From Hyphomicrobiales bacterium (GTDB lineage Bacteria; Pseudomonadota; Alphaproteobacteria; Rhizobiales; Xanthobacteraceae): a stretch of DNA of 53,264 bases. Positions 1,474 through 28,593 of the stretch are shown in pieces. Under the pieces are notes generated by a model, which ran no database searches, was not told the origin of the DNA, and saw only the letters and a list, made by a program, of their open reading frames with translations. The translations under genes were made by a program, and so were the position numbers. The stretch's first letter is position 1. Every line of letters starts with the position of its first letter. The DNA lies in contig JAFKKM010000039.1 in the NCBI GenBank assembly GCA_017305555.1, positions 1 through 53,264 of the forward strand. The letters run 5' to 3'.

Positions 1474-3072
1474 ATGAGTGTCACTCTTCAATTCTGCGGT
1501 GCGGCCCACACGGTTACGGGATCCTGCTATTGCTTCAAGACTCCGGCGGGCACCTTTCTGGTCGATTGCGGGCTCTTCCAGGGGCAGAAGACGCTCAAGG
1601 AGTTGAACTACACCGCCTTCCCATTTCGTCCCGCTGATGTCGATATCGTCCTTCTGACACACGCCCATATCGACCACAGCGGCCTACTGCCAAAACTGAT
1701 GCTTGAAGGTTTTCGCGGCCGGATATTCGCCACGCGCGGAACGATCGATCTGTGTTCATATATGTTGCCGGATTCCGGGAGCATTCAGGAATCCGAGGTC
1801 GCGGCCCTGAACCGGCGCAACCTGAAGCGCGGAAAGCCCGAAGTCAGCCCGATCTATACACAGGCCGACGCCGTCGCATCGCTACAGTCATTCCGGTCCG
1901 TCGAATACGAGACGTGGGTCGATGTCATTCCGGGCGTCCGCGCCCGCTATTGGAACGCCGGCCATCTTCTCGGATCCGCCTCGATCGAACTGGAATTCGC
2001 CGATGAAAACACCCCTGAGCATCCCCTGCGGGTGCTCATGTCCGGCGATCTCGGTCCCGATACGAAACTGCTGCAACCCGACCCCGTTGCCCCGGCAGGA
2101 TTCGATTATGTGATTTCGGAATCAACCTACGGCGACCGCGTTCGCCCGGAAACAACACATCAGGGCCGGCAACAGCGCCTGGCAGCCGAAGTTCACGACG
2201 CCGCCAAGGCAAACGGCGCCTTACTGATCCCTGCTTTCGCCGTCGAACGCACGCAGGAATTGATCGTCGATCTGGTTGGCCTGATGGAGCGCGGAGAGAT
2301 CCCTGTCGCGCCGATCTTCCTAGATTCTCCTCTCGCGATCCGTGCCACGGAGGTTTTCCGAAACCATGCCGCAAGTCTTGACCCAAATATCGACGTCGCC
2401 CGTTTGCTCAGTTCGCCGCATCTCAGATTCACCGAGACGGTGGAGGAAAGCAAATCGATCGCCAAGCTCTCCGGATTTCATATCATCATTGCAGCGAGTG
2501 GAATGTGCGATGCCGGTCGGATCCGCCACCATCTGAAACATTGGCTATGGAATAGCCGCGCGACGGTGCTTCTGGTCGGTTTTCAGGCTCGCGGCACGCT
2601 CGGACGATTCCTCGAAGAAGGAGCGAAAGCCGTTCGCATCCAAGGAGAGGATATCAACGTGGCGGCCCGGATTCGCCGGATCGACGACTATTCCGGACAT
2701 GCGGACGGCTCAGAGCTGGTCAGATGGATTGCTGCGCGCCGCCCCATTCAAAGAGGCATCTTCCTGGTCCACGGCGAGGATCAGGCCATGGCAGGATTGT
2801 CCGAACGAATTGCGGAGCGGGTGATTCCATCGGCAAAAATCTTCCTGCCGATCCTCGACGACATCTATGATTTATCGACGAACGTGCCGACCAGCCTGAG
2901 CGCGACACATCGTCGTCGGCTTGCTCCCGAGGCCGTGGTCGCCCTTGATTGGCACAACGACATGTCCAAGATGATTCTCGATATCAACGACAGGGTTGGA
3001 GCGGCAGCGGATGACCGGGCACGCGGCGTCATCATTCGAAGATTGCGACGGGCCCTGGACGCGGACGTTTGA
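1474..3072 (+). CDS. Beta-CASP metallo-beta-lactamase fold RNase (MBL-fold RNA-processing exonuclease)
   Basis: 532 aa. The zinc motif LLTHAHIDHSG lies at about residues 60-70. Further metal ligands are the His in NAGHLLGSASI (about 163) and the Asp in MSGDLG (about 191). The beta-CASP part has SESTYGDR, then GMCDAGRIRHHL (about 344-355) and the terminal YSGHADGSEL motif. This order is that of bacterial CPSF/YsgA-like RNases, which cut RNA in the cytoplasm using two Zn ions. Start ATG 1474 follows TTGAGG at good spacing. The last 70 residues are a helical tail of unknown role. It stands alone, converging with the CBS gene at 3104-3595. RNA substrate unknown. Confidence 0.88.
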   Translation: MSVTLQFCGAAHTVTGSCYCFKTPAGTFLVDCGLFQGQKTLKELNYTAFPFRPADVDIVLLTHAHIDHSGLLPKLMLEGFRGRIFATRGTIDLCSYMLPDSGSIQESEVAALNRRNLKRGKPEVSPIYTQADAVASLQSFRSVEYETWVDVIPGVRARYWNAGHLLGSASIELEFADENTPEHPLRVLMSGDLGPDTKLLQPDPVAPAGFDYVISESTYGDRVRPETTHQGRQQRLAAEVHDAAKANGALLIPAFAVERTQELIVDLVGLMERGEIPVAPIFLDSPLAIRATEVFRNHAASLDPNIDVARLLSSPHLRFTETVEESKSIAKLSGFHIIIAASGMCDAGRIRHHLKHWLWNSRATVLLVGFQARGTLGRFLEEGAKAVRIQGEDINVAARIRRIDDYSGHADGSELVRWIAARRPIQRGIFLVHGEDQAMAGLSERIAERVIPSAKIFLPILDDIYDLSTNVPTSLSATHRRRLAPEAVVALDWHNDMSKMILDINDRVGAAADDRARGVIIRRLRRALDADV

Positions 3073-6720: not shown

Positions 6721-6894
6721 ATGTCCAACATCGTCAAACCGTCCGAGCCACCTGACGCCGATGAACCTGTGCCGTTCATGCAGCGCGTGTTGGACGACCC
6801 ATTTCTGCTTCTCTTCATCGGCGTCACCATTCCCACCATCCTCTACCTCGTCTGGGGCGTAATGGAGATCGCCAACGTCCCGGTTGGCAAATAG
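6721..6894 (+). CDS. 57-aa single-span subunit of the heme-copper complex
   Basis: 57 aa, ATG 6721 after AAAGGG, stop 6892-6894. The first 25 residues are acidic and Pro-rich. One membrane helix follows (FLLLFIGVTIPTILYLVWGV, about residues 28-47), then a short tail. It lies 11 bp before the CuA subunit gene and has GC-rich third positions like its neighbours. Small single-helix subunits of this kind accompany ba3-type oxidases and related NO reductases. Its operon position makes a structural subunit the likely role. No family name is certain. Confidence 0.75.
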   Translation: MSNIVKPSEPPDADEPVPFMQRVLDDPFLLLFIGVTIPTILYLVWGVMEIANVPVGK

Positions 6895-6905
6895 GAGCGT
6901 GATCG

Positions 6906-7457
6906 ATGGCCGTTACCTCTCCCGAGCGCCGCGTCTGGTGGAATGAACCGGTTGAGCGCGTCGAAATGATCTGGATCGCCGTGGCGCTGCTATGGGGCCT
7001 GTTCATGTTTTTCTTTATGATCGCCTGGCATTTCATCGGCGGTCAGAATCTTTCAACCGAAGCTTATCGCGTGGTGCCGAGCGTCTACCAGAATAAGGTG
7101 GACGAATTCGCCCAGAAGTATCAGGTCGGCGACGAATCCGGCACGCCGATCGTGCGGCCACCAGCCGGCGTCGACATCTATCTCCTCGGGCGGCTCTGGC
7201 AATGGTGGCCTGTGCTGCAACTGGAAAAGGGGCAGAGCTACCGCCTGCATCTGTCATCGGCCGATTGGCAGCACGGCTTCTCGCTGCAACCCACCAACAT
7301 CAACATCCAGGTTCATCCCGGCTACGAGCACGTCATCGTCCTGACGCCGACCGAGGCCGGCGAGTTCGGTATCATCTGCAACGAGTTCTGCGGCATCGGC
7401 CATCACACCATGACCGGGAAGATCATCGTCGTCGATAGCAAGGCGGAGGCGAAGTAA
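6906..7457 (+). CDS. Heme-copper enzyme subunit II with complete CuA site
   Basis: 183 aa. One N-terminal membrane helix (about residues 20-42), then a periplasmic cupredoxin. All CuA ligands are present: H123 in DWQHGF, then C158, E160, C162, H166 and M169 in CNEFCGIGHHTM. The length and single anchor resemble the short subunit II of ba3-type oxidases rather than the two-span A-type. CuA takes electrons from a soluble cytochrome c, so this is a cytochrome c-oxidising enzyme, unlike cNOR, whose NorC carries heme c. ATG 6906 follows AGGAGCG; the stop is one base from the start of subunit I. Confidence 0.93.
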   Translation: MAVTSPERRVWWNEPVERVEMIWIAVALLWGLFMFFFMIAWHFIGGQNLSTEAYRVVPSVYQNKVDEFAQKYQVGDESGTPIVRPPAGVDIYLLGRLWQWWPVLQLEKGQSYRLHLSSADWQHGFSLQPTNINIQVHPGYEHVIVLTPTEAGEFGIICNEFCGIGHHTMTGKIIVVDSKAEAK

Positions 7458-7458: not shown

Positions 7459-9183
7459 ATGACCACCGTCGAGGGAATTGTCGCAGCGACGCGCGAACGG
7501 GCCGCGAATTTTCGCACCTGCCAGTTCACCGGTCTCAAAGTCGATATCGGCGCGCAGCGGTTGATCATCGCCAACGCGGTCGCGGCTGTGGTGTTTCTCG
7601 CCGTTGGCGGCCTGATGGGGCTGATGGTGGCGCTGACGCGCTGGCCGGCGGTACATCTTCTGCCTGCCGAGTGGTTCTACCTGATCCTGACCGCGCACGG
7701 CGCCAACGTGCTCTTGTTCTGGATCATCTTCTTCGAGATTGCCGTGCTGTATTTCGCCTCCGCAGTGCTGCTCAATTCGCGCCTCGCCGCGCCGAAGCTC
7801 GGTTGGCTCGGCTTCGTCCTGATGGTGGTCGGCGCCATCATCACCAACGTCGCGGTGCTGCAGGGTGAATCGACGGTGATGTTCACCTCGTATCCGCCGA
7901 TGATGGCGCGGCCGCACTTTTATCTCGGCATCATCCTGTTCGCGGTCGGCGCTCTGATCGGCGTCGGGCTGTTCTTCGGGACACTGATGATCGCCAAGGC
8001 CGAGCGCACCTATGAAGGCTCGATCCCGCTCGTCACCTTTGGCGCGCTGACGGCGGCAATCATCGCCGTGTTCACGCTGGCGTCGGGGGCGATCATCCTG
8101 GTTCCGACCATGCTGTGGTCGATGGGACTGATCCGCGACATTGATCCGTTGATGTACAAGCTGGTGTGGTGGGCGATGGGCCATTCCTCGCAGCAAATCA
8201 ACGTCTCGGCGCACGTCTCGGTGTGGTACATGATCGGCGCGCTGGTGCTGGGCGCCAAACCGCTATCGGAGAAGGTCAGCCGCGGCGCGTTCTTCCTCTA
8301 CATCCTGTTCCTGCAACTGGCCTCCGCACACCACCTGCTGGCCGAGCCGGGAATCAGCGCCGAGTGGAAGATCGTCAACACCAGCTACATGATGTATCTG
8401 GCGGTGCTCGGTTCGATGATCCACGGCCTCACCGTACCCGGTTCGATCGAGGCGGCGCAGCGCCGCAACGGCTTCAACAGAGGCGTGTTCGAGTGGCTGC
8501 GCAAGGCGCCGTGGGGCAACCCCGCGTTCTCCGGCATGTTTCTGTCGCTGGTGATGTTCGGATTCATCGGCGGCATCTCCGGCGTGATACTCGGCACCGA
8601 GCAACTCAACGTGCTGATGCACAACACTATCTATGTCCCCGGCCATTTCCACGGCACGGTGGTCGCCGGCACTACGCTGGCCTTCATGGCCGGCACCTAT
8701 CTGGTGCTGCCGCTGATCTTCCAACGCGACATCATCTGGCCGAGCTTGGCGCGCATTCAGCCCTACCTGTTCGGCATCGGCGCCGCCGGCATCTCGGTGT
8801 TCATGATGGGCGCCGGCACCCTCGGCGTGGCGCGGCGGCACTGGGACATCAACTTTACCGACGCAGTGATCGGCTTCCAGCATTCGCCCGGCGCGTTCCT
8901 GATGATGGGCATGAACGGCATCAGCGCCATTCTCGCGGCGCTCGGCGGCATCATTTTCGTGCTGGTGGTGGTCGGCACCGCGCTGTTCGGCAAGAAGATC
9001 GGGCCGGGCCACAAGATGACGTTTCCGCTGCATTCGTCGGCTGCGGTCGTGTCGAAGTATGGCAGTGAAGGCACGATCAAACTGCCCGGCACCATCGTGC
9101 TGGTGACGATCTTCTTCCTGTCTTTCGTGCTCTATTACTTCGTCAACTGGAAGTACCTGTCTGACCTGTGGCTGTTCCGTTGA
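7459..9183 (+). CDS. Heme-copper oxidoreductase subunit I lacking the active-site Tyr (putative NO reductase)
   Basis: 574 aa, about 12-14 helices. All metal ligands are visible: H80 (TAHG) and H398 for the low-spin heme, H396 (GHFHG) for the high-spin heme, and H242, H291 and H292 for CuB. In oxidases the helix VI motif is GHPEVY, with Tyr four residues after His. Here it is GHSSQQ, so that position is Gln246. No Tyr stands 6-7 residues before the HH pair as in cbb3 enzymes. Loss of the cross-linked Tyr is a mark of NO-reducing branches of the superfamily. The Dnr-like regulator in this operon and the absence of norCB from the window agree. A low-activity oxidase cannot be excluded. Confidence 0.9.
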   Translation: MTTVEGIVAATRERAANFRTCQFTGLKVDIGAQRLIIANAVAAVVFLAVGGLMGLMVALTRWPAVHLLPAEWFYLILTAHGANVLLFWIIFFEIAVLYFASAVLLNSRLAAPKLGWLGFVLMVVGAIITNVAVLQGESTVMFTSYPPMMARPHFYLGIILFAVGALIGVGLFFGTLMIAKAERTYEGSIPLVTFGALTAAIIAVFTLASGAIILVPTMLWSMGLIRDIDPLMYKLVWWAMGHSSQQINVSAHVSVWYMIGALVLGAKPLSEKVSRGAFFLYILFLQLASAHHLLAEPGISAEWKIVNTSYMMYLAVLGSMIHGLTVPGSIEAAQRRNGFNRGVFEWLRKAPWGNPAFSGMFLSLVMFGFIGGISGVILGTEQLNVLMHNTIYVPGHFHGTVVAGTTLAFMAGTYLVLPLIFQRDIIWPSLARIQPYLFGIGAAGISVFMMGAGTLGVARRHWDINFTDAVIGFQHSPGAFLMMGMNGISAILAALGGIIFVLVVVGTALFGKKIGPGHKMTFPLHSSAAVVSKYGSEGTIKLPGTIVLVTIFFLSFVLYYFVNWKYLSDLWLFR

Positions 9184-9207: not shown

Positions 9208-10866
9208 ATGCGCGCCGTGCTGACCACCACCGTCTCGCTGCTCAAGCTGCGCATTGGCATCGCGATCGCCGCCAGCACGATCGCGGGCGTGGCGGCGGCA
9301 CAGGGTATGCCGCGTGAGACGTGGGAGGTGTTGGCGTTGGCGCTGGCAGTGCTCGGGGCCTCGGGCGCGGCCGGCGCGTTCAACCACTATTACGAGCGCG
9401 ATCTTGATCGCCACATGCGGCGCACCGAGAGCCGGCCGTTTGCCAGTGGAATGTTGCAGCCGGGCGCGGGCTGGCTCGCGGCCTTCGCCGCGCTCGCGAT
9501 GCTGTCGCTGGCGCTGGCCTATGTCGTCGGCGGCGCGGTCAGTGCCCTCTACGTGCTGCTCGGTGGCCTGACCTACGGCGTGGTCTATACCGTGTGGCTG
9601 AAGCGTCGGACGCCAATGAATATCGTGATCGGCGGGCTGTCCGGCAGCTTCGCCGTGCTGGCCGGTGCGGCGGCGGTCGATCCGATGCCGCAGACGGTGC
9701 CGGTGCTGCTGGCGCTGGTGTTGTTCCTGTGGACGCCGCCGCATTTCTGGGCGCTTGCCGCGGCGCGCCGTGACGACTACGCCAATGCCGGCTTTCCGAT
9801 GCTGCCGGTTGTCACATCCGAGCGGGTCTGGACCACGGCGATCCTCGCCCACACCGTGGCGCTGTCGATGCTATCACTGCTGCCGCTCTGGTTCGGAATG
9901 GGGGCAATCTACGGGATCGGCGCGAGCGTTGGCGGCGCGGTGTTCGTGTGGCGGAGCTGGCAGCTTTACCGCGCCCCGAGCCGCGCCACCGCAATGGCGA
10001 CCTTCGGCGCATCGCTGATCCACCTCACCTTGTTGACGCTGGCGGTGGTGCTGGATACCGCGGTGGTGACCAAGGCGGCGGCTACGCCGGCCGGTGACCC
10101 CCTCGATCCCCGCATCGTACTGGAGCGAAGCGAGGCGGCGATCGGTACCAAGTTCGGCGACTACGCGCTGCGCGATCCGCAAGGCCGCCATATCGCACTC
10201 AGCGATTATCGCGGCCGCCCGCTGGTCGTCAGTCTGGTCTATACGAGTTGCAGCACCACTTGTCCGGTGACAACGCAGCACCTCATCGACGCGGTGGCGC
10301 AGGCGCGCCGCAGCCTCGGGGCAGACCGCTTCGCGGTGCTGACCATCGGCTTCGACGCGCGCCGCGACAGCCCGCAGCGCATGGCGGCGTTCGCCGGCCG
10401 GCAGGGCATCCCGGCCAGTGGCTGGGACGTCGCCAGCGGCGACGAGGCGACGTTGGCGGCGCTGATCCGAGATCTGGGCTTCAGTTATCAGGCGGTCGCC
10501 GGCGGTTTCGATCACATCGCACAAACCACGATTATCGATGCCGGAGGGCGGGTCTACCGTCAGATCTACGGCGACGACTTCCCGCTGCCGGTGTTCGTCG
10601 AGCCACTGAAGGAAGCGGTGTTCGGCATCACCACCCGTGCGCTGACCGTCTCGGCGCTGTTCGATCGCCTGAGCTTCCTCTGCACCGTCTACGATCCCGG
10701 CCAAGGCCGCTACCGCACCAGCTATGCCATCGCGCTCGGCATCGGTATCGGCGGGTTATCGCTGCTGCTTACCGGCGGCATCTTCGTTCGCGCGTGGATG
10801 CGAAACCGCCGGTTGGAAGCATTGCGCCGCGCTTCGCCGCCGCAACTGCTCGGGCGGCGGACATGA
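9208..10866 (+). CDS. Fusion of heme O synthase (CtaB/UbiA family) with SCO1/SenC copper chaperone
   Basis: 552 aa. Residues 1-285 are a UbiA-type polyprenyltransferase with NHYYERDLDRHMRRT (about residues 59-73, the Asp-rich Mg-prenyl-PP site) and several helices. They are close to protoheme IX farnesyltransferase but lack one Asp of the usual NxxxDxxxD. Residues 305-505 are a SCO domain: thioredoxin fold, copper site C348-STT-C352-P and distal H436. A C-terminal helix (about 512-532) anchors it. The fusion would join heme farnesylation to CuA metallation for the enzyme just upstream. The stop overlaps the next start by 4 bp. The two functions normally sit on separate proteins. Confidence 0.88.
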   Translation: MRAVLTTTVSLLKLRIGIAIAASTIAGVAAAQGMPRETWEVLALALAVLGASGAAGAFNHYYERDLDRHMRRTESRPFASGMLQPGAGWLAAFAALAMLSLALAYVVGGAVSALYVLLGGLTYGVVYTVWLKRRTPMNIVIGGLSGSFAVLAGAAAVDPMPQTVPVLLALVLFLWTPPHFWALAAARRDDYANAGFPMLPVVTSERVWTTAILAHTVALSMLSLLPLWFGMGAIYGIGASVGGAVFVWRSWQLYRAPSRATAMATFGASLIHLTLLTLAVVLDTAVVTKAAATPAGDPLDPRIVLERSEAAIGTKFGDYALRDPQGRHIALSDYRGRPLVVSLVYTSCSTTCPVTTQHLIDAVAQARRSLGADRFAVLTIGFDARRDSPQRMAAFAGRQGIPASGWDVASGDEATLAALIRDLGFSYQAVAGGFDHIAQTTIIDAGGRVYRQIYGDDFPLPVFVEPLKEAVFGITTRALTVSALFDRLSFLCTVYDPGQGRYRTSYAIALGIGIGGLSLLLTGGIFVRAWMRNRRLEALRRASPPQLLGRRT

Positions 10867-12428
10867 TCGCCCTGGTGCGCCGGGGCACCGCGCGTGGCTT
10901 CGATGCCGCCGAACGCGGCCTCAACCGCCTCGCCGGCCCGGCGGTCAATCCGCTTGCGCAACTCGGCGCACTCGGCTTCTTCCTGTTCTGGATCGTCGTT
11001 GTCAGCGGTATCTACCTGTTCATGCTGTTCGACACCGGCGTCGAGAACGCCCATGCCTCGATCGAATGGTATTCCACGCGCTACGCCTGGCACGCCGGAG
11101 TGATGCGCAGCTTTCACCGCTATGCCTCCGACATGATGATCGTGGTGATGGCGCTGCATCTGCTGCGGGAGTTTTCACGTGACCGCTATCGCGGCGGCCG
11201 CTGGTTCTCGTGGGTGACCGGCGTGCCGGTGATCTGGTTCCTCTACATGTCCGGGATCACCGGCTACTGGCTGGTGTGGGATCAGTTGGCGCAATACATC
11301 GCTACCACCTCGACCGAACTGCTCGACTGGCTGCCGATTTTCGGCGAGCCGATCGCCCGCAATTTTCTCGCGCCGTCGAGCCTATCGAACCGCTTCTTCA
11401 CATTGCTCGTGTTTTTGCACATCGCGGTTCCGCTGTTACTGCTGTTCATGTTGTGGATTCACATCCAGCGCATTACCCGGCCCAAGGTGAACCCGCCGCG
11501 CACGCTGGCGGCGCTGACGATGCTGGCGCTGCTCGCGGTATCGATCGTCAAGCCGGCACTGAGCCAGGGCGCGGCGGACCTTGCGAAAGTGCCGAGCCCG
11601 GTCGGGCTCGACTGGTTCTATCTGCCGCTCTATCCGCTGGCCGATGCCGCGCCGGGCGCGCTGTGGGGGCTACTCGGGGCGGCGACCGTGATGCTGGCTG
11701 CGATGCCATGGCTGCCGCCGCTGCGGCGGATGAAGCCCGCCACCGTCGATCTCGACCACTGCAACGGTTGCGGCCGCTGCGTCGAGGATTGCCCATATGA
11801 CGCCTTGCAGCTCGTACTGCGCAGCGACGGCCTGCCCTATCACGTCGAGGTCGTCGTCAATACCGACAAATGCGTGAGCTGCGGCATTTGCACCGGCGCG
11901 TGCCCGTCGTCAACGCCGTTCCGCAGCACAGGCCCGCTCGATACCGGCATCGACCTGCCGGATGTCACCTTCGCCTCGATGCGCGAGCGGCTCCATGAAC
12001 TGGCCGCGCGGGACACCTCGTCGCCGCGTCTTCTAGTGATCGGTTGCTGGCACGGCGCCGCCGCCGCGCGTGGCGAGGACGTCCTGTCGCTGCCCTGTGT
12101 TGCCGCCGCACCACCGTCGCTGATCGACTACGCGCTGAGTCGCGGTCTGGTCGATGGCGTCGTCATCGCCGGCTGCTCCGAGAGCGCTTGCTACAACCGT
12201 CTCGGCGTAGAATGGATGCAGCAACGCATCGCCGGCGAGCGCAATCCATACTTGCGGTCGCGCGTGCCGCGCGACCGCATCCTCTCGGTCTGGGCCTCGC
12301 CGGCCGAGGGAGCGCGGCTAGATCACGAGATCAACACTTTCAAGGTGCGGCTCGCAAAACTCGCGCAGGAGCAGCCGCAGCAGCAGACCACCGAGACGCC
12401 GACGACGGTCAGGGAGGCGGCATCATGA
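10863..12428 (+). CDS. Cytochrome b / 2x[4Fe-4S] ferredoxin / MvhD-like fusion protein
   Basis: 521 aa. Residues 30-290 are a bc1/b6f-type cytochrome b: the bis-His pairs H85/H99 and H186/H200 have the standard 13-residue spacing. Near residue 250, LDWFYLPLY resembles the PEWY quinol-site loop. Residues 295-350 hold two 4Fe-4S motifs (C300, 303, 306, 310 and C337, 340, 343, 347). Residues 388-500 resemble MvhD/FlpD [2Fe-2S] subunits, with C395, C412, C438 and C443. No Rieske protein is encoded nearby. The cluster-bearing half is probably cytoplasmic. It could link the quinone pool to a soluble low-potential donor. ATG 10863 overlaps the previous stop (ATGA). Confidence 0.87.
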   Translation: MIALVRRGTARGFDAAERGLNRLAGPAVNPLAQLGALGFFLFWIVVVSGIYLFMLFDTGVENAHASIEWYSTRYAWHAGVMRSFHRYASDMMIVVMALHLLREFSRDRYRGGRWFSWVTGVPVIWFLYMSGITGYWLVWDQLAQYIATTSTELLDWLPIFGEPIARNFLAPSSLSNRFFTLLVFLHIAVPLLLLFMLWIHIQRITRPKVNPPRTLAALTMLALLAVSIVKPALSQGAADLAKVPSPVGLDWFYLPLYPLADAAPGALWGLLGAATVMLAAMPWLPPLRRMKPATVDLDHCNGCGRCVEDCPYDALQLVLRSDGLPYHVEVVVNTDKCVSCGICTGACPSSTPFRSTGPLDTGIDLPDVTFASMRERLHELAARDTSSPRLLVIGCWHGAAAARGEDVLSLPCVAAAPPSLIDYALSRGLVDGVVIAGCSESACYNRLGVEWMQQRIAGERNPYLRSRVPRDRILSVWASPAEGARLDHEINTFKVRLAKLAQEQPQQQTTETPTTVREAAS

Positions 12429-12937
12429 GCCTGCCGGTCTCGATTCCTCGGTTGATCGGATTGTTCGCGGTGCTGACGGCGGTGACGGCGTTTGCCGCCA
12501 CCTTCTCCAACGCGCCAGCCTACCGGCAGATTCCCGCCGGCACCGGCGTCATCAAGTTCAGCTTCAGCCATAGCGCCGACCGCGGGCGAGAATGCCGCCG
12601 CCGTACCCCGGAGGAACTGGCGAAGCTGCCGCCCAACATGCGCCGGCCGCTCGACTGCCCGCGCAGCAGGCGCGCCATTTTCGCCGAGCTTGCGATCGAC
12701 GACGTCGTGGTGTTCAGCAAGGAATTACCGCCCTCGGGTTTTGCCAAGGACGGACCGTCGCAAGTCTATCGCCGCTTCATGGTGGCGGCGGGCTCTCACA
12801 CCATCGCCGCACGGTTGCGGGATACGCCGCGGGCAAGCGGCTTCGATCACGAACGCATCGAGGCAGTGTCGGTCCGCCCCGGGCAAAGCCTCGCGCTCGA
12901 TTTCCGCCCAGAGCACGGTGGATTCATCTGGCGCTGA
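12425..12937 (+). CDS. Secreted or anchored protein of unknown function in the heme-copper operon
   Basis: 170 aa; ATG 12425 overlaps the stop of the cytochrome b fusion (ATGA), so it is translationally coupled. A signal or anchor sequence covers about residues 8-30. The rest is a compact beta-rich domain with a CRRRTPEELAKLP stretch (about 57-69) and a second Cys in PLDCPRSRR, with no recognised cofactor motif beyond these two Cys. Family not recognised. Its place as last gene of the operon and its predicted periplasmic location suggest an assembly factor or accessory subunit of the CuA enzyme. Confidence 0.75.
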   Translation: MSLPVSIPRLIGLFAVLTAVTAFAATFSNAPAYRQIPAGTGVIKFSFSHSADRGRECRRRTPEELAKLPPNMRRPLDCPRSRRAIFAELAIDDVVVFSKELPPSGFAKDGPSQVYRRFMVAAGSHTIAARLRDTPRASGFDHERIEAVSVRPGQSLALDFRPEHGGFIWR

Positions 12938-13044: not shown

Positions 13045-13818
13045 ATGACCCCCGCCGACTGGTCGATCGTCAACCGCGTTCCCGTCTTCCGTTCGATGGG
13101 CGACGCACTGAGCCATCGCACAGTGCGCCGCCACGCGCGCGGCGAACTGTTGTTCCAGCAGGGTGACCCGGCGACCTGCTGCTTTCTCGTGCTCGACGGT
13201 TGGGTCAAGCTCTACCGTCAGACCACCGACGGCGACGAGGTAGTGGTATCGCTGTTCACCGCCGGCGAAAGCTTCGCCGAGGCGATGATGTTCCGTGGCG
13301 GCCGTTATCCCGCAACGGCGGAGGCGGTGACGTCGGTGCGGCTTCTGCATATCGACGGCCAGTTGCTGCGCGACGCCATCCTGCGCAACCCGCAGATTTC
13401 GTTCGACATGCTGGCCGCGTCGTCGCTGCATCTGCGGCGGCTGGTCGAGCAGGTCGAGCAGTTGAAGGCGCAATCGGCGCCCAAGCGCATCGCCAGCTTT
13501 CTGTTGTCGCTCACGTCAGTGCGCCGTGGTCCAGCGCGGATCGAATTGCCTTACGAGAAGCTACTGATCGCCAACCGCCTCGGCATGAAGCCAGAAAGCT
13601 TCTCGCGGGCGCTGCGGCAGCTTCGCGGCACCGGCGTCTCTGTCGAGCGCGAGTTCGTCCGCATCAATGAGGTGGCCCACCTCAGTGCCTTTATCGAGGG
13701 CGACGAGTCCGATGGCGTTCCGTGCCGGCGGATCCGGACGCCGTCGCAGTGCGGAGCGTTTGACCTTGGTTGCCTTGGAACCGCCTACCCCGGATCGTTG
13801 CGCCGGCTGCGTCCGTGA
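13045..13818 (+). CDS. dnr: Crp/Fnr-family regulator of the Dnr type (probable NO/anaerobic regulator)
   Basis: 257 aa. A cyclic-nucleotide-binding-type beta-roll covers about residues 12-125, then the dimer helix, then the HTH with KPESFSRALRQL (about 180-191). ExxSR in the recognition helix is the FNR/Dnr signature for reading TTGA half-sites. There is no N-terminal Cys cluster, so it is not an O2-sensing FNR. Dnr/NnrR proteins sense NO through heme. The start is ATG 13045, preceded by a TTGAC-N4-CGCAA box. The C-terminal 30 residues are longer than usual. It probably controls the heme-copper operon, nar, nos, hemN and the cytochrome genes here. Confidence 0.85.
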   Translation: MTPADWSIVNRVPVFRSMGDALSHRTVRRHARGELLFQQGDPATCCFLVLDGWVKLYRQTTDGDEVVVSLFTAGESFAEAMMFRGGRYPATAEAVTSVRLLHIDGQLLRDAILRNPQISFDMLAASSLHLRRLVEQVEQLKAQSAPKRIASFLLSLTSVRRGPARIELPYEKLLIANRLGMKPESFSRALRQLRGTGVSVEREFVRINEVAHLSAFIEGDESDGVPCRRIRTPSQCGAFDLGCLGTAYPGSLRRLRP

Positions 13819-15768: not shown

Positions 15769-15782
15769 TTGCTCTAGATCAA
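15769..15782 (-). promoter_or_regulatory. FNR-type box upstream of hemN
   Basis: TTGCTCTAGATCAA has a perfect ATCAA half-site; the other half-site is TTGCT. Its centre is 168 bp from the hemN GTG. With a start at -41.5 the leader would be about 127 nt, longer than at the other genes. Confidence 0.5.
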
Positions 15783-19902: not shown

Positions 19903-20622
19903 TTACTGTATAAGGGGCGTTTGCGTGCCGCCAAGATCTACGCCCGAGAGCCTCGCCTGGCCGGCGAGTACGCTTACATATTGTCGAACGGCTTTTTCCT
20001 CGACCTTTGAACGCAGTCGAACTGCTATCTGTGCGCTCACGGTTTCGAAAGGTAATTTCTTTCCTGGAATGCTTTGATCGACGGATACAATATGAAAACC
20101 GTAACGTGTCTTGACCAGGTCGCGAAGAACCCCTAACGCACCAAACTTGAAAAGCACCTTTTCAAACTCCGGCACAGTGTCGCCGCGGCCGATCTGTCCC
20201 AAATTGCCGCCTTGTTGTCCTGATGGACAGTTTGAAAGCTCACGCGCCAAAGCGTCGAAACGATCGGGCTCACGAAGCAATTGGTTTAGGGTCTCCTCAG
20301 CACGGGCCCGAATTTCGGGAATGCGCACCTGTGGCGTGACCTGAAACAGAATATGACGGGCATGCACTAGATCGCCGCTCTGAAACTCTCGTGGGTGCCC
20401 GTTATAGTAGCGGCGGCATTCCTCCTCGGTGGGTGAAGGCGTCGTAACCTCGCGCTCCAGCAGTGCTTCGATCGCCGCATCGATCTTCGTCTCTTCACTT
20501 GCGGTCTCGGCCAGCAGGTCGACGGCAATCGCACGTTGCCGCAGAAGCTCGCGCGCCGCGGCAAGCTCGCTGGAACTATCCGGTTTGACCGAGACCTCGA
20601 CGCCATTGACGGATACTATCAC
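19903..20622 (-). CDS. PpiC/parvulin-type peptidyl-prolyl isomerase of the nar operon
   Basis: 239 aa from GTG 20622, which overlaps the narI stop. The parvulin domain covers about residues 105-205: HARHILFQV, then GGNLGQIGRGDTVPEFEKVLF (quoted in part), and YGFHIVSVD at its end. The N-terminal 100 residues are helical, with no signal peptide, as in NifM-like cytoplasmic PPIases. Pseudomonas aeruginosa has a PpiC-type gene at the same place after narI. It probably helps fold or assemble nitrate reductase in the cytoplasm. It is the last gene of narK-narGHJI-ppiC. Confidence 0.88.
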   Translation of the reverse strand: MIVSVNGVEVSVKPDSSSELAAARELLRQRAIAVDLLAETASEETKIDAAIEALLEREVTTPSPTEEECRRYYNGHPREFQSGDLVHARHILFQVTPQVRIPEIRARAEETLNQLLREPDRFDALARELSNCPSGQQGGNLGQIGRGDTVPEFEKVLFKFGALGVLRDLVKTRYGFHIVSVDQSIPGKKLPFETVSAQIAVRLRSKVEEKAVRQYVSVLAGQARLSGVDLGGTQTPLIQ

Positions 20623-21338
20623 GAGCGGACGGGCTCCTTCGCCCTCGTCTTCGGCGTGCGCACGATCTGGTAAGGCCGGAACAGATAGGCCAGCGCGCCG
20701 CCGCCGCTCCAGATATGGATCATGCGCGTGAACGGCGAAACGAAGAACAACGTGAAGCCCAAGAGGATATGCAATTTGTAGGTAAGCGGCACATCGACCA
20801 TCAGGGCCGCAGCATTGCCATCGAGGGTGACGATCCCCTTGACGTAGCTCGTCAACGTTTCGAACAGCCCCCCATCCATGTGGAAGGCGGACAGCGGCAC
20901 GGTGAGCAGGCCGAGCAGAAGCTGCAACCACAGCATCAAGGTGATGGTGATGTCCCATTTGCGGCTGTTGAGCCGGATGCGTGGATCGGCCAGCCGCCGG
21001 TAGATGAGGATCGAAAGCCCAACGATGGCAGTGAGCCCCGCGATGCCGCCCACCACCATGGCGAGGAGCTGGTGCGCGACAGGATCAAGCGCCCAGTCCA
21101 CAGCCCAATGCGGTGCGAGAAACCCGGCAAAATGCCCGAGGATGACGACGATTACACCGTAGTGGAACAGGTTCGAGCCGAGCCGGAGCTGGCCCTTGCG
21201 CAGCATCTGAGATGAGTCGCTCTTCCATGTGTAAGGCTCGCGGTCGAAGCGGATTAGGCTGCCGACCAGGAGGACGACGAGACAGATATAGGGATAGACG
21301 CCGAACAGCAGCGTGTTCACATAAGCATTGGACAGCAT
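20619..21338 (-). CDS. narI: Respiratory nitrate reductase gamma subunit (cytochrome b)
   Basis: 239 aa, five membrane spans. It oxidises quinol and passes electrons through two b hemes to NarH. Start ATG 21338 follows GAGGAGG at good spacing; the frame runs further upstream but without family likeness. The N-terminus LFGVYPYICLVVLLVGSLIR is typical. Histidine ligands are those of NLFHYGV and GHFAGFL (helix II region) and those of YKLHILLGF and TRMIHIWS near the C-terminus. Full length for the family. It lies 14 bp after narJ and overlaps the PPIase start. Confidence 0.96.
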   Translation of the reverse strand: MLSNAYVNTLLFGVYPYICLVVLLVGSLIRFDREPYTWKSDSSQMLRKGQLRLGSNLFHYGVIVVILGHFAGFLAPHWAVDWALDPVAHQLLAMVVGGIAGLTAIVGLSILIYRRLADPRIRLNSRKWDITITLMLWLQLLLGLLTVPLSAFHMDGGLFETLTSYVKGIVTLDGNAAALMVDVPLTYKLHILLGFTLFFVSPFTRMIHIWSGGGALAYLFRPYQIVRTPKTRAKEPVRS

Positions 21339-21352
21339 TGCCAAGTCCTCCT

Positions 21353-21988
21353 CTAGGCAGCCGGTGTACACGTCGCTGAATCGGCAGATGCAAGAGATCC
21401 GCCGAAAGCGGGTTGCTCGGTCCATTCACGATCGAGCGTCTCAATGCGTTCCTTTACGGGCGGTACCTTGTCGACTTCGATCGGGCTTTCTCCTGCGACG
21501 ACGAGCAAGGCTTGTAACACCGCCGCGTAGCGGCTTCGCCGCGCGACAAGGGAACGGCCGATTGTCGTCAGGATCTGGGCGCAGTCCGCCAGCATGTCGC
21601 GAGCCTCCGCGAGGTCGCGGCAGCTCAGATATTCGAGTACGACGGGAAGATAATCCGGCAGTTCGCGTGCGGTGAGTTCGAACCCAGCCTTCTCGTAGAG
21701 CTGTTTGAGTTCGACCATGGCCTCGCCACGGTCGCGGCTCTCACCATGCAAATGCTCGAACAGATGCAGGGAGAGCGCCCGACCCCGGTCGAAGAGATCG
21801 ACATAGCGCTCCTCGGCGGCCAGCAGATCGCCGTCCCCCAGTTCGTCGATCAATGCGAGGAGATCGTCGCGGCGAGGCGGATCAAGCAGCGGCGCCGTTC
21901 TGACGATGTCCGCGATCTCCGGCAGCGCCTGTCGCATACCTTCCGACGGATACGACAGCAGGGCACTGAAAGCCTTGAATAGCAGCAT
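21353..21988 (-). CDS. narJ: Nitrate reductase assembly chaperone NarJ
   Basis: 211 aa, all helical, of the TorD/NarJ chaperone family. It binds the NarG apoprotein in the cytoplasm during molybdenum cofactor and FeS insertion and is not in the final enzyme. It begins LLFKAFSALLSYPSE, has the family stretch SLHLFEHLHGESRDRGEAM (about residues 79-97) and DYLPVVLEYLS (about 120-130). ATG 21988, preceded by GAGGCGAGG, lies 10 bp after narH; a longer upstream extension overlaps narH and is rejected. Confidence 0.95.
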   Translation of the reverse strand: MLLFKAFSALLSYPSEGMRQALPEIADIVRTAPLLDPPRRDDLLALIDELGDGDLLAAEERYVDLFDRGRALSLHLFEHLHGESRDRGEAMVELKQLYEKAGFELTARELPDYLPVVLEYLSCRDLAEARDMLADCAQILTTIGRSLVARRSRYAAVLQALLVVAGESPIEVDKVPPVKERIETLDREWTEQPAFGGSLASADSATCTPAA

Positions 21989-21998
21989 CCTCGCCTCC

Positions 21999-23531
21999 TC
22001 AGGTATCGAGCGGCCGCACAGGATTGAGCTTGCGCCGCCCCATCTTGCCGCCGAACAGCGTCGAGTGCGGTGGCCCGAAATCGCAGCCATTGCCGAAGGT
22101 GAAGCCGCAGGAGCCTTTCAGGCCGTAGGCGTCCTCGGCCTCCTCACGGTGGCTGGTCGGAATGACGAAACGGTCCTCATAGTTGGCGATGGCGAGATAG
22201 CGGTGCATGTCCTCGACCTGCGCCTTCGACAGGCCGGCCTGAGCCAGTACCGCTTCTCCGTCACCCTCGCCCAACTGCCGCTGGCGGAAATGGATGCGCA
22301 TGGCGAGCATCCGTTCCAGCGCCGTGACGACCGGCTCCTCCGCACCCGCCGTAAGCAGATTGGCGAGATAGCGGACAGGGATGCGCAACGAGCGGACATC
22401 GGGAATCTCCCCGTTCGTCTCGATCGCGCCCGCGTTGGCGTGCGACTGGATCGGGGACAGCGGTGGAACGTACCAGACCATCGGCAGTGTGCGATATTCG
22501 GGGTGAAGCGGGAATGCGATCTTCCAGTCGACGGCCATCTTGTAGGCCGGCGAGCGCTTGGCCGCCGCGATCCAGTTATCGGCGATGCCGTCGGCTCGGG
22601 CCTGGGCCTCGACCGCCGGGTCGTTCGGATCGAGGAACAGCTTGAGCTGCGCCTCGTAGAGATCCTGTTCGTCCTCGACCGCGGCGGCGGCCTCGATGCC
22701 GTCGGCGTCGTAGAGCAGCACGCCGAGATAGCGGATGCGTCCGACGCGCGTCTCCGAGCACACGGTTGGCTGGCCGGCCTCGATACGCGGATAGCAGAAG
22801 ATGCATTTCTCGGCTTTTCCCGAGGTCCAGTTGTAATAGATCTTCTTGTACGGGCAGCCAGACACGCACATGCGCCAGCCCCGGCACTTGTCCTGATCGA
22901 TCAGGACGATGCCGTCTTCCTCGCGCTTGTAGATCGAGCCGGACGGGCAGGAAGCAACGCAGCTCGGGTTGAGGCAATGCTCGCACAGCCGCGGCAGATA
23001 CATCATGAACGTGTTTTCAAACTGACCGTAAATGTCCTTCTGCACCGCCTCGAAATTGTAGTCCTTGGAGCGCTTGTCGAACTCGCCGCCAAGGATCTCC
23101 TCCCAGTTCGGCCCCCATTCGATTTTTTCCATTGGCTTGCCGGTAACAAGCGACAGCGGGCGTGCCACCGGCGAGGTCGGTAGTTCGGGCGCCTTTTGCA
23201 GGTGCTCGTAGTCGAAGGTGAAGGGCTCGTAATAGTCGTCGATTTCCGGCAGATGCGGGTTGGCGAATATCTTGGCGAGGATCGAAAGCCGCCCGCCTTG
23301 CTTGGGCACGATCTTGCCGTTCTTCTTGCGTTTCCAGCCGCCCTGCCAGCGTTCTTGGTTCTCCCAATCTTTCGGGTAGCCGATACCTGGCTTGGTCTCG
23401 ACATTGTTGAACCAAGCATATTCCATGCCTTGGCGTGAGGTCCATACCTGCTTGCAGGTCACCGAGCAGGTGTGGCAGCCGATACATTTGTCGAGGTTCA
23501 TTACCATCGCGATCTGGGCGCGGATTTTCAT
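21999..23531 (-). CDS. narH: Respiratory nitrate reductase beta subunit (four FeS clusters)
   Basis: 510 aa. It carries electrons from NarI hemes to NarG. The N-terminus CIGCHTCSVTCKQVW (about residues 16-30) and later groups LCEHCLNPSCVASCPSG (about 183-199), CRGWRMCVSGCP (about 216-227, the 3Fe-4S site with Trp replacing a Cys) and KCIFCYPRIE are all present and intact. It lacks a signal peptide and sits on the cytoplasmic side. Its ATG overlaps the narG stop by 4 bp (ATGA), the usual translational coupling. Confidence 0.97.
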   Translation of the reverse strand: MKIRAQIAMVMNLDKCIGCHTCSVTCKQVWTSRQGMEYAWFNNVETKPGIGYPKDWENQERWQGGWKRKKNGKIVPKQGGRLSILAKIFANPHLPEIDDYYEPFTFDYEHLQKAPELPTSPVARPLSLVTGKPMEKIEWGPNWEEILGGEFDKRSKDYNFEAVQKDIYGQFENTFMMYLPRLCEHCLNPSCVASCPSGSIYKREEDGIVLIDQDKCRGWRMCVSGCPYKKIYYNWTSGKAEKCIFCYPRIEAGQPTVCSETRVGRIRYLGVLLYDADGIEAAAAVEDEQDLYEAQLKLFLDPNDPAVEAQARADGIADNWIAAAKRSPAYKMAVDWKIAFPLHPEYRTLPMVWYVPPLSPIQSHANAGAIETNGEIPDVRSLRIPVRYLANLLTAGAEEPVVTALERMLAMRIHFRQRQLGEGDGEAVLAQAGLSKAQVEDMHRYLAIANYEDRFVIPTSHREEAEDAYGLKGSCGFTFGNGCDFGPPHSTLFGGKMGRRKLNPVRPLDT

Positions 23532-26500
23532 GACGCAGTCTCCTCGACGGCACGATCGACGGGGTTGGAATGATCGAGCCAGTCGATCTTGGTGAGCTTG
23601 CGTACGATGACGAACTCGTCACGGTTCGAGCCGACCGTTCCGTAATAGTTGAAACCGTATGAAAGCTGCGCGTAGCCACCGACCATATGGGTCGGCTTGA
23701 GCAGCGTTCGCGTCACGGAATTATGGATGCCGCCGCGCAGGCCGGTAATCTGCGAGCCCGGCACATTCACGATCTTTTCCTGCGCATGATACATCAGGCA
23801 CATGCCTTCATGGACGCGCTGGCTGACCACGGCGCGCGCCGCGATCGCCCCGTTCAGGTTGAACAGCTCGATCCAGTCGTTGTCGACGATGCCAGCCTGT
23901 TTCGCATCGGTCTCGGACAGCCACACGATCGGCCCACCGCGCGACAAAGTCAGCATCAGCAAGTTGTCTGTATAGGTGGAATGAATGCCCCATTTCTGAT
24001 GCGGCGTGATGAAGTTCAGCACGATTTCCGCTTCGCCATTGCTCTTCTTGCCGAGCATTTCGGAAACCGTGCGAGTGTCGACCGGTGGCCGGTAGACGGC
24101 GAAGCTCTCGCCGAAATCGCGAAACCAGCGATGATCCTGATAGAATTGCTGGCGACCGCTCAAGGTACGCCACGGGATCAATTCGTTCACATTGGTGTAG
24201 CCCGCCGTATAGGAGACATGCTCGCTCTCGATCCCGGACCAGGTCGGCGATGAGATGATCTTGCGCGGCTGAGCCTGGATGTCGCGAAAGCGGATTTTCT
24301 CGTCTTCGCGCATCCGGGCCAGATGCGTGTGATCGCGTCCCGTTATTTTGCCCAGCGCCTCCCAGGCCTTGACCGCCACCTCGCCGTTGGTTTCGGGCGC
24401 CAGATACATGATGACTTCCGCCGCATCGATATCCGTCTCGATGCGCGGCCGGCCTTGTGTCGGGCCGCCGTCATTGACGCGATAGTTCAGGTCGCCGAGA
24501 CCCTTTACCTCCTGCTCGGTATTCCAACCGATGCCCTTGCCGCCATTGCCGAGCTTGTCGGCCAGCGGACCAAGCGATGTGAAGCGACGATACGTGTTGG
24601 GATAGTCACGCTCGACCACCGTGATCTGCGGGGCAGTAACGCCGGGAATGAGGTCGCATTCGCCTTTCTTCCAGTCCTTGACCTCGAAGGGCTGCGCAAG
24701 CTCGCCGGGGGTGTCGTGCTGAATGGGTGTGAGCACAACGTCTCGTTCGACACCGAGATGGCCTTCGGCCAGTTCGGAGAACCGCTTGGCGATGGTCTTG
24801 TAGGTCTCCCAGTCGCTACGTGATTCCCAGACCGGGTCCACTGCCGTCGATAGCGGATGAATGAAAGGGTGCATGTCGGAGGTGTTGAGGTCGTTCTTCT
24901 CGTACCATGTGGCGGTCGGCAGCACGACGTCGGAATACAGGCAACTCGTCGACATGCGGAAGTCGAGCGTGACGACGAGATCGAGCTTGCCTTCAGGCGC
25001 GGGATCTCGCCAAGCAACCTCTTCGGGCTTGAGGCCGTCCATCTCGCCAAGATCCTTGCCCTGCAGGCCATGCCGGGTGCCAAGGAAATGCTTCAGGAAA
25101 TATTCGTGTCCCTTGCCCGACGAGCCGAACAGGTTGGAGCGCCAGATGAACAGGTTGCGTGGAAAATTGACCGGATCGTCCGGGTCTTCGCAGGCCATGG
25201 CCAGCTTGCCCGACTTCAGGCCGGCGGCGACATGGTCCTTCACCTCGGCGCCGGCCTTTTCCGCCTCGGCCGCAAGCGTGAGAGGGTTGACGTTGAGCTG
25301 CGGCGCCGAGGGCAGCCAGCCCATGCGCTCGGCCCTGACGTTGAGGTCGATCATCGAGCCGCGATAGGCGGCGGGATCGGCGAGCGGCGAGAGCAGTTCG
25401 GAAACGTCGAGCTTCTCGTAACGCCATTGGTCGCTGTGCGCATAAAAGAACGACGTGCCATTCATCTGGCGCGGCGGGCGCACCCAGTCGAGCGCAAAAG
25501 CCAGCATGGTCCAGCCGGTCTGCGGCCTCAGCTTCTCCTGTCCGACATAATGTGCCCAGCCGCCGCCCGAGACGCCGACGGTGCCGCACATCATCAGAAC
25601 GTTGATGATGCTGCGGTAGCCCATATCCTGGTGATACCAATGGTTCATGCCGGCGCCGATGATCACCATCGAGCGGCCTTTCGTCTTCTCGGCATTGTCG
25701 GCAAAGCCGCGCGCCAAGGCGATCGCCTTGTCTACGGTGACGCCCGTGATCGATTCCTGCCAAGCGGGAGTATAGGGGACGTTCTCCTCGAAGGAGGTCG
25801 CGCAGGCCCCGCCAAGTCCCCGGTCGAGCCCATAATTGGCACAGAGCAGGTCGAACACCGTTGCGATACGCGCCTCTCCGTCTGCGAGCACGACACGGCG
25901 CACCGGCACATTGCGCAACAGTACGTCACCACCCTGGTCGTTCTCGGGGAAATGGTCGTGCAGCTTGCCGCCGAAATAAGGGAATGCCACCGGCACAACC
26001 TCGTCGCGACGATCGACAACGCTCAGCGCAACGCGGATATCCTCCCCGGTTTCTCCGTCCTTTGGTTCAAGGTTCCAGCGTCCCGTCGCGCCATCTTCGC
26101 TCGGCCAACGATAGCCGCTCGATCCCTGTGGAATGACGAGCTCGCCGGTTTCTTCCGCGAGTGCCACCGTCTTCCAGTCGGCACGGTCGGCCTTCGGCAC
26201 ATCGATGAGGTCGCTCTGCCGTACGTAGCGATCCGGTATCCAACGTTCGCCATCCTTGCGCAGCCGCACTAGCATCGGCATGTCGGTGTAACGGCGCGTA
26301 TAATCCTGGAAATATGGCACCTGGCGGTCGAGGAAAAACTCCTTGAGAATGACATGGCCCATCGCCATCGCGAGCGCCGCATCAGTACCCTGTTTGGGAT
26401 GAAGCCAGAGATCGGAAAGCTTGGCGACCTCTGCATAGTCGGGCGTGATCGCCACGACCTTTGTGCCGTTATAACGCGCCTCGACGAAGAAATGAGCGTC

Positions 26501-27286
26501 GGGCGTGCGTGTCTGCGGTACGTTCGAGCCCCAGGCAATGATGTAGCCGGAATTGTACCAGTCGGCCGATTCCGGCACGTCTGTCTGCTCGCCCCAGGTC
26601 TGCGGGCTCGACGGCGGCAGGTCGCAGTACCAATCGTAGAAAGATAAGAGCGTACCGCCAATCAGGCTGAGATAGCGCGAGCCGGAAGCGTAGGAGACCA
26701 TCGACATGGCCGGGATCGGGGAAAAGCCAACGACACGGTCCGGTCCCCATTTCTTGATGGTATGGACGTTCGATGCGGCGATGATCTCGCTTACCTCGTC
26801 CCAGGTGGAACGAATAAATCCGCCACGGCCGCGCATCGACTTATAGGATTTTGAAGTTTCGGCATTCCCGGTGATCGACGCCCATGCTTCGACGGGTTGC
26901 AGTGTCCTGCGTGCTTCTCGCCATGCCTTGATCAAGCGACCGCGCACCAAGGGATATTTGATGCGGCTGGCGCTATAGAGATACCAGCTATAGGAGGCAC
27001 CGCGCGAGCAGCCGCGCGGCTCATGGTTGGGCATGCCGGGACGGGTGCGCGGATAGTCGGTCTGCTGCGTCTCCCAGGTGACGACGCCGCTCTTGACGTA
27101 GATTTTCCAGGAGCATGAGCCGGTGCAGTTCACGCCATGCGTCGAGCGAACGATTTTGTCGTGCTGCCAGCGCTGCCGGTAGCCTTCTTCCCACATGCGA
27201 TCCTCGTCGCGCAGCTCGCCATGTCCGTCAGCGAAGCTTTCACGCTTTCGGGAAAGGTAGGTGAGACGCTCAAGGAAATGGCTCAT
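23528..27286 (-). CDS. narG: Respiratory nitrate reductase alpha subunit (Mo-bisMGD)
   Basis: 1252 aa, full length. It reduces nitrate to nitrite in the cytoplasm. The FS0 [4Fe-4S] ligands are H50, C54 and C58 in HGVNCTGSC, plus the Cys in PRGCSRGASYSW. The Mo ligand Asp is in the YNSGYIIAWGSN region, and the Tyr and Gly-rich MGD-binding segments follow (for example GAGMNHWYHQDMGYRS). The start ATG 27286 is preceded by AAGGAAAAGAG. The gene is 18 bp after narK and overlaps narH, forming one operon narK-G-H-J-I-ppiC. It shows no frameshift. Confidence 0.98.
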   Translation of the reverse strand: MSHFLERLTYLSRKRESFADGHGELRDEDRMWEEGYRQRWQHDKIVRSTHGVNCTGSCSWKIYVKSGVVTWETQQTDYPRTRPGMPNHEPRGCSRGASYSWYLYSASRIKYPLVRGRLIKAWREARRTLQPVEAWASITGNAETSKSYKSMRGRGGFIRSTWDEVSEIIAASNVHTIKKWGPDRVVGFSPIPAMSMVSYASGSRYLSLIGGTLLSFYDWYCDLPPSSPQTWGEQTDVPESADWYNSGYIIAWGSNVPQTRTPDAHFFVEARYNGTKVVAITPDYAEVAKLSDLWLHPKQGTDAALAMAMGHVILKEFFLDRQVPYFQDYTRRYTDMPMLVRLRKDGERWIPDRYVRQSDLIDVPKADRADWKTVALAEETGELVIPQGSSGYRWPSEDGATGRWNLEPKDGETGEDIRVALSVVDRRDEVVPVAFPYFGGKLHDHFPENDQGGDVLLRNVPVRRVVLADGEARIATVFDLLCANYGLDRGLGGACATSFEENVPYTPAWQESITGVTVDKAIALARGFADNAEKTKGRSMVIIGAGMNHWYHQDMGYRSIINVLMMCGTVGVSGGGWAHYVGQEKLRPQTGWTMLAFALDWVRPPRQMNGTSFFYAHSDQWRYEKLDVSELLSPLADPAAYRGSMIDLNVRAERMGWLPSAPQLNVNPLTLAAEAEKAGAEVKDHVAAGLKSGKLAMACEDPDDPVNFPRNLFIWRSNLFGSSGKGHEYFLKHFLGTRHGLQGKDLGEMDGLKPEEVAWRDPAPEGKLDLVVTLDFRMSTSCLYSDVVLPTATWYEKNDLNTSDMHPFIHPLSTAVDPVWESRSDWETYKTIAKRFSELAEGHLGVERDVVLTPIQHDTPGELAQPFEVKDWKKGECDLIPGVTAPQITVVERDYPNTYRRFTSLGPLADKLGNGGKGIGWNTEQEVKGLGDLNYRVNDGGPTQGRPRIETDIDAAEVIMYLAPETNGEVAVKAWEALGKITGRDHTHLARMREDEKIRFRDIQAQPRKIISSPTWSGIESEHVSYTAGYTNVNELIPWRTLSGRQQFYQDHRWFRDFGESFAVYRPPVDTRTVSEMLGKKSNGEAEIVLNFITPHQKWGIHSTYTDNLLMLTLSRGGPIVWLSETDAKQAGIVDNDWIELFNLNGAIAARAVVSQRVHEGMCLMYHAQEKIVNVPGSQITGLRGGIHNSVTRTLLKPTHMVGGYAQLSYGFNYYGTVGSNRDEFVIVRKLTKIDWLDHSNPVDRAVEETAS

Positions 27287-27304
27287 TCTCTTTTCCTTTC
27301 CCGT

Positions 27305-28567: not shown

Positions 28568-28593
28568 CCGCACCTCTTAGGCGATGATGGAAC

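Follow-up and report, generated by a model that had tools for sequence, protein, structure and literature searches.

A fused cytochrome b, ferredoxin and MvhD protein

The DNA analysed here, referred to as the window, is a stretch of 53,264 nucleotides from a Hyphomicrobiales bacterium (assembly GCA_017305555.1, contig JAFKKM010000039.1). Its subject is a 521-residue protein, hereafter the fusion, in which cytochrome b is joined to two [4Fe-4S] motifs and an MvhD/FlpD-like domain, and which is encoded behind the genes of a heme-copper enzyme that by its motifs is an eNOR-type nitric oxide (NO) reductase. The fusion and its parts are as follows.

10863-12428, plus strand: fusion of cytochrome b, 2x[4Fe-4S] and MvhD/FlpD, 521 residues, a single open frame with stop
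10935-11471, plus strand: cytochrome b (b6-like) part, residues 25-203; PF00033, heme ligands H85/H99 and H186/H200
11511-11720, plus strand: subunit-IV/ExtQ-like part, residues 217-286; ExtQ match, LDWF loop
11742-11912, plus strand: two [4Fe-4S] ferredoxin motifs, residues 294-350; PF00037 twice, above cut-off, eight cysteines
12000-12392, plus strand: MvhD/FlpD-like domain, residues 380-510; PF02662, C395, C412, C438 and C443

The fused architecture is real and far beyond chance. A preliminary description of this DNA had the coordinates, the length of the single chain and all named residues right, and its three domain calls were recovered by Pfam above the cut-offs, Cytochrome_B with 74.3 bits on residues 25-203 (cut-off 27.2) and FlpD with 38.5 bits on residues 407-500 (cut-off 22.3). 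ExtQ (NF040970) matches residues 217-292 at 3.5e-8, under its curated cut-off, and the LDWF sequence at residues 249-252 is a putative PEWY-like quinol-site loop. Hydrophobic peaks at residues 224 and 275 of the subunit-IV-like part, taken with the cytochrome b homology, suggest a b6-like four-helix bundle with two more helices. From the topology of the family we infer that the tail is cytoplasmic and the LDWF loop periplasmic. The protein has 12 cysteines in all, none of them beyond the ferredoxin and MvhD sets, and its start shares four bases with the stop of the upstream CtaB-SCO1 gene.

The tail is related to MvhD and to the C-terminus of HdrA2

MvhD-type iron-sulfur domains are best known from methanogen enzymes. 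Judged by profile comparison, the C-terminal domain of the fusion is a genuine MvhD relative: a profile of 28 homologues matched MvhD-type chains only in the PDB (six matches at E<=0.01, the best being 9sw2_D with E 3e-14 and 5odc_D with 9e-14), which speaks against the possibility, named in the preliminary description as one that would refute it, that the domain is not MvhD-like. C412, C438 and C443 coincide with MvhD cysteines in the four alignments shown, and C395 does so in that with 9sw2_D, the only one of the four extending that far. The full MvhD set (an N-terminal CCNWC, then a cysteine, then GCxxGDC) is not present in the fusion, which retains one cysteine of the CCNWC group (C395) and the other three MvhD positions.

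Residues 293-503 align to residues 572-774 of the 777 in HdrA2 (E 3e-16), with two ferredoxin motifs followed by MvhD in both, but the fusion carries cytochrome b instead of the flavin (HdrA core) domain. It scores 58.7 bits against an NCBIfam HdrA2 cut-off of 1100, a narrow cut-off that just one of 14 control genomes passed. In heterodisulfide reductase (Hdr) enzymes electrons go from MvhD to the C-terminal ferredoxin and on to the flavin (PMC9012536; this and the other papers cited by PMC number are used in excerpt). A whole-genome search returned the fusion as the sole FlpD match, and among the 17 matches to the HdrA2 model the fusion was best, the other 16 being short and none exceeding the cut-off. 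With neither another FlpD nor a better match to that model, the genome seems to lack the usual Hdr partner. No Hdr, hydrogenase or formate dehydrogenase genes were found in the operon, to which the search for the latter two was confined. The tail probably meets a carrier other than Hdr.

Conservation of heme ligands, putative quinol-site residues and cluster cysteines

Homologues were taken from 41 loci, namely a Defluviimonas plasmid and 40 stretches from other genomes (17 of 17 order matches and 20 of 33 phylum matches, the window's own genome excluded, and three relatives); these gave 44 homologous frames and, with the window protein, an alignment of 45 rows. The heme histidines H85, H99, H186 and H200 are invariant in all 45, so that the two heme-histidine pairs required of a bc/b6f cytochrome b are present throughout; D250-W251 of the LDWF loop and W139, D140 and E152 are likewise found in 45 of 45 rows. 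Each single cysteine occurs in 44 or 45 rows and the full set of 12 in 44, also where identity to the window protein has fallen to about 42%. This retention argues against the idea that the protein derives from a Rieske-less quinol:cytochrome c complex, its tail a leftover and its cytochrome b a plain quinol dehydrogenase or sensor. That idea could appeal to the nearness of the cytochrome b half to b6/ExtP and to the host's further cytochrome b at G000:C76, a candidate for bc1; we regard it as highly improbable.

The lone exception to the cysteine set, L110_12047, has a tail composed of Fer2, FAD_binding_6 and NAD_binding_1, a ferredoxin-NAD(P)H reductase module. At L110:10137-12119 (minus strand), within an eNOR locus, lies this tandem paralogue of the fusion, a cytochrome b with a Fer2-FAD-NAD(P) tail, and on its account the tail acts like a redox port that can be exchanged. 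The other copy at that locus (L110_9589) deviates at four positions in the quinol-site region (135, 144, 155 and 257). Selenocysteine in the MvhD domain was considered, as five phylum matches had been flagged for an inner TGA, and was rejected on inspection of the frames: in G392, G369 and L093 the TGA, near position 502-506, proved to be a normal stop codon, and the aligned frames of G417, G449 and G360 have none.

The neighbouring enzyme is by its motifs an eNOR-type NO reductase

The genes that bear most directly on the fusion are these.

6906-7457, plus strand: CuA subunit II (eNOR subunit II); COX2 and CoxB matches below cut-off, CxxxCxxxHxxM motif
7459-9183, plus strand: heme-copper subunit I, eNOR type; COX1 213.6 bits, GHSSQQ
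9208-10866, plus strand: heme o synthase (CtaB) fused to SCO1; UbiA 7.9e-48, SCO1 6.4e-13, TIGR01473 above cut-off
12425-12937, plus strand: orfC, 170 residues; ATGA overlap with the fusion, no Pfam match

The assignment of the enzyme as eNOR rests on its active-site motif. At the place of GH..Y in oxygen reductases, subunit I carries GHSSQQ, and the glutamine at CuB-His+4, the position of the active-site tyrosine, is present in all 31 aligned sequences (the window and 30 loci). Replacement of this tyrosine by glutamine is the published mark of eNOR, whose genes are often mislabelled cytochrome c oxidase (PMC8756737). The subunit II matches are weak (COX2 20.9 bits, slightly below the cut-off of 22; CoxB 2.9e-12, also below cut-off), and the CuA motif CxxxCxxxHxxM is present in the window protein and in 28 of 28 homologues. 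A match in Haloarcula was rejected as eNOR, as it has tyrosine at the glutamine position and is of the oxygen reductase type. Next to the fusion or orfC, L110:6624-8057 and L093:466-1908 (both minus strand) encode a further heme-copper protein that distantly resembles subunit I; in helix VI it has GGHVLQF, lacking both tyrosine and glutamine at His+4, and it matches no NCBIfam model.

The fusion and eNOR occur together across genomes

Genome counts include the window's own genome and, in the order set, used E<=1e-40 for the fusion and E<=1e-100 for subunit I. Among 297 genomes of the order the fusion was found in 18 and subunit I in the same 18. Among 398 genomes of the phylum the fusion was found in 34 and subunit I in 30; 29 have both, five the fusion only and one subunit I only. 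With the window genome left out, Fisher's test gives p values of 6e-28 (order) and 9e-37 (phylum), the kinship of the genomes overstating their independence. A looser search recovered a subunit I fragment in G528, one of the five fusion-only genomes. The protein distance matrices of the fusion and subunit I correlate with r 0.937 over 31 rows, a value reached in none of 2000 permutations, shared descent contributing to it. In a closer set of 61 relatives a full-length fusion was found in just five, one of them the window's genome, which makes its distribution patchy. The tie between the fusion and the CuA enzyme claimed in the preliminary description is thus borne out at the level of whole genomes, and the enzyme can be named as eNOR.

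The survey for the fusion beside subunit I that had been suggested there placed subunit I within the fetched stretch in 30 of the 41 loci; in one (L100) the oxidase genes are oppositely oriented. Contig ends near the fusion cut four loci (L073, L092, L093 and L097). In the remaining seven (L096, L098, L101, L103, L105, L106 and L107) the fusion lies apart from oxidase genes; six of these genomes have their subunit I at another place, which in G385 is about 19 kb off on the same contig, and G449 is without it. The preliminary description would have been refuted by a gene common outside any heme-copper operon; the gene does lie apart from the oxidase operon in 7 of 41 loci, yet across genomes it still tracks eNOR. 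Neighbours of the separate fusions were considered as partners and judged to be there by chance, namely CysS/RlmB (L098; RlmB in L096) and Rrf2/IscS/HscA (L103); by BLAST clusters, L101, L105, L106 and L107 have neighbours in common with L103. At L107:12626-15719, near the fusion locus, are genes for a PhsA-like molybdopterin oxidoreductase and a NapC/TorC-like multiheme cytochrome, and related gene pairs occur in L096, L097 and L100.

orfC accompanies the fusion

In all 41 loci a frame corresponding to orfC comes after a cytochrome b fusion, in 40 of them directly after the MvhD-type fusion and in L110 after the NAD(P)H-type paralogue. This constancy, together with the presence of eNOR in six of the seven genomes whose fusion lies apart, indicates that the fusion and orfC form a unit whose bond to eNOR is more than positional. 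The orfC protein has one N-terminal helix and then a predicted beta domain, which by inference is periplasmic. A 42-row alignment shows a conserved cysteine pair (C57, C78) together with H49 and H125; its row for L077 is partly wrong, orfC there spanning two frames, and both cysteines are missing in L093. The structure model has a predicted local distance difference test (pLDDT) score of 70, and a PDB fold search with it returned nothing at E<=0.001. The protein could be a Rieske stand-in or a chaperone.

An assembly role has also to be weighed for the fusion itself, which would then supply electrons for eNOR maturation and not for catalysis, be it to modify heme, to insert CuA jointly with SCO or to act on a disulfide in orfC. 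The gene lies directly behind CtaB-SCO with a four-base overlap, orfC has its conserved cysteine pair, and some fusion-orfC pairs are found apart from oxidase genes. We think such a role improbable, as the complete conservation of both hemes and of the quinol site exceeds what an assembly factor needs and the eNOR loci on the Thermomicrobium and Thermus plasmids do without the fusion.

Absence of a Rieske motif and possible route of the electrons

A pattern scan of 42 stretches found no Rieske motif, and the same pattern recovered the Rieske gene in three of three bc1 control loci from same-genus genomes; the preliminary description had likewise seen no Rieske partner beside the fusion. The scan found no CxxCH motif in the genes of the window's operon. 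Given both absences, the high-potential electron of a quinol oxidation must be accepted by CuA, orfC or a soluble cytochrome c. A D-type (PDWY) quinol-site loop has been mentioned for low-potential chains (PMC6349771).

We propose, with moderate confidence and from sequence comparison, that the fusion is the membrane partner of proteobacterial eNOR, serving as a dedicated module through which electrons pass between the quinone pool, a cytoplasmic iron-sulfur port and this enzyme. The fusion would sit beside eNOR in the membrane with its tail in the cytoplasm and would oxidise quinol at the periplasmic side. One electron would pass to CuA, directly or through orfC or cytochrome c, and on to NO, and the second would run by way of the two b hemes to the [4Fe-4S] clusters and on to MvhD, which would hand it to a soluble low-potential carrier. 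The MvhD-ferredoxin tail, which feeds a flavin in Hdr, would here trade electrons with heme b. This outward direction taken alone, in which quinol is oxidised and its electrons are split between CuA and the port, we put forward tentatively. Its furthest form, a Rieske-free electron-splitting complex with CuA in the Rieske role, a flavin-free MvhD and NO reduction driving the making of low-potential reductant, we consider unlikely.

Electrons might instead flow inward, as the preliminary description had it: reduced ferredoxin or flavodoxin, or an NAD(P)H-linked enzyme, would dock on MvhD and feed the clusters, heme b and then quinone or CuA, so that eNOR could draw on reductant from the cytoplasm and remove NO without going through bc1. 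The order of tail domains is that of HdrA2, the paralogue with the Fer2-FAD-NAD(P) tail resembles an NAD(P)H entry port, and the missing Rieske motif fits as well. Such a feed would, however, waste energy if the host owns a pumping NADH dehydrogenase, and the conserved D-W quinol-site loop would be superfluous if electrons went directly to CuA; the argument from wasted energy has been raised for Kuenenia too (PMC12954380). We hold inward flow to be possible and rather doubtful. Because it wastes energy and the quinol-site residues are invariant, quinol oxidation with splitting is favoured.

Several points weigh against the proposed electron-transfer module. With the usual potentials of CuA and ubiquinone the low branch could hardly reach ferredoxin, so that splitting would require either hemes of low potential or a CuA out of the ordinary. 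No gene for a cytoplasmic partner was found in the window's operon. Four phylum genomes (G434, G449, G456 and G574, 69-96% complete) have the fusion with no eNOR found, and G389 has eNOR without the fusion even by the looser search. A fixed equimolar complex is disfavoured by the 7 of 41 loci in which the two lie apart. The eNOR regions of Thermomicrobium roseum and Thermus thermophilus have no fusion at the locus or elsewhere on their plasmids (chromosomes not searched), from which the fusion looks like an accessory module. A structure model of the fusion built from three sequences was poor (pLDDT 43.8, predicted template modelling score 0.30) and was set aside. The position next to CtaB/SCO would suit an assembly role as well.

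Other operon genes and the host setting

Two further genes belong to the region.

6721-6894, plus strand: small single-transmembrane protein, 57 residues, heading the operon; homologues at 27 of 41 loci, no Pfam match
13045-13818, plus strand: Crp/FNR-family regulator, 257 residues; cNMP_binding and HTH_Crp_2, found on a longer frame

The 57-residue protein has a conserved core, MQ..LDN(P)F.LL...P...Y..WG, and is possibly an unrecognised eNOR subunit. Short proteins like it also head the eNOR loci of T. roseum and T. thermophilus. CtaB and SCO1 are two separate genes on the Defluviimonas plasmid; the fused chain occurs at window 9208-10866 and at L137:7817-9619, and the eNOR locus of T. roseum has instead a 600-residue chain whose first half is CtaA-like by eye (CtaA-CtaB). 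The Crp/FNR-family protein, with homologues in 6 of 41 loci that are near full length in three, is a possible local regulator. No good match to an FNR box was found near 6721, before the operon. Perfect FNR-type sites lie at window 3652 and 30204 and a single-mismatch site at 15769 upstream of hemN, none of them close before the operon; sites with at most two mismatches number 31 in the window against 16.5 expected.

The denitrification setting that the preliminary description had recognised is supported by NarGHJI at window 19903-28573 (minus strand), which has a major facilitator superfamily (MFS) carrier before NarG and a gene for a PPIC-type peptidyl-prolyl isomerase after NarI, and by NirK at another place in the genome. 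NirS was not counted, as the cytochrome d1 model scored above cut-off on a 388-residue frame but covered just positions 9-117 of 368. The genome has four heme-copper subunits I above cut-off, that of eNOR and three which, from their motifs, we take to be one of the aa3 type and two of the cbb3 type, so that eNOR looks like the only NO reductase of the heme-copper superfamily in this host. A beta-CASP metallo-beta-lactamase-fold protein at window 1474-3072 has as its best NCBIfam models type VII CRISPR Cas14 and archaeal aCPSF1, both well under their cut-offs, and is likely an ordinary RNA-processing nuclease.

Implications and comparison with known systems

eNOR is among the more recently characterised NO reductases (PMC11388526) and has been called quinol-dependent (PMC13274419); its electron supply is hardly treated in the excerpts of literature looked at. 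The literature searched has no description of the fusion, in keeping with the preliminary description, which knew of no system with this order of domains next to such an oxidoreductase; Murali et al. 2024, the principal paper on eNOR, lies outside it and may mention the gene. A partner gene that is near one-to-one offers a concrete, testable answer on how eNOR receives electrons, and the almost constant pairing suggests dedicated wiring of NO reduction to the electron supply of the cell. The fusion could also be used as a marker for N2O-producing eNOR. If it is true that the tail trades electrons with ferredoxin, ordinary proteobacteria would possess a quinone-based, flavin-free link to low-potential carriers.

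The eNOR loci on the plasmids of T. roseum and T. thermophilus share with that of the window a CuA-type subunit II, glutamine at His+4 of subunit I (GHGAQQ) and a short first protein. For the membrane part of the fusion, the best NCBIfam models come from the Geobacter ExtO-ExtP-ExtQ system, ExtP for the cytochrome b part (1.2e-29) and ExtQ for the part following it. The fusion falls below both curated cut-offs (103.6 against 290 bits for ExtP), and ExtO is by description a Rieske protein (PMC5877670), whereas the fusion locus has no Rieske motif.

The Rieske/cytochrome b complexes of Kuenenia (Kuste4569-4574 and Kustd1480-1485) provide a functional parallel (PMC12954380). Like the fusion they have a b6-like cytochrome b with a subunit IV, which at the negative side connects with Fe-S clusters and a redox port. 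Splitting of quinol electrons has been proposed for these complexes with their NAD(P) reductase, for one of them with a nitrogen-oxide pull from nitrite to NO, so that reduction of a low-potential carrier driven by quinol has a proposed precedent in anammox bacteria (PMC12954380). Features of their own are a Rieske protein, multiheme cytochromes c and a flavin NAD(P) reductase (PMC12954380). The fusion differs from them in dispensing with the Rieske protein, in being one fused chain, in having MvhD as its port and in being paired with a CuA heme-copper enzyme.

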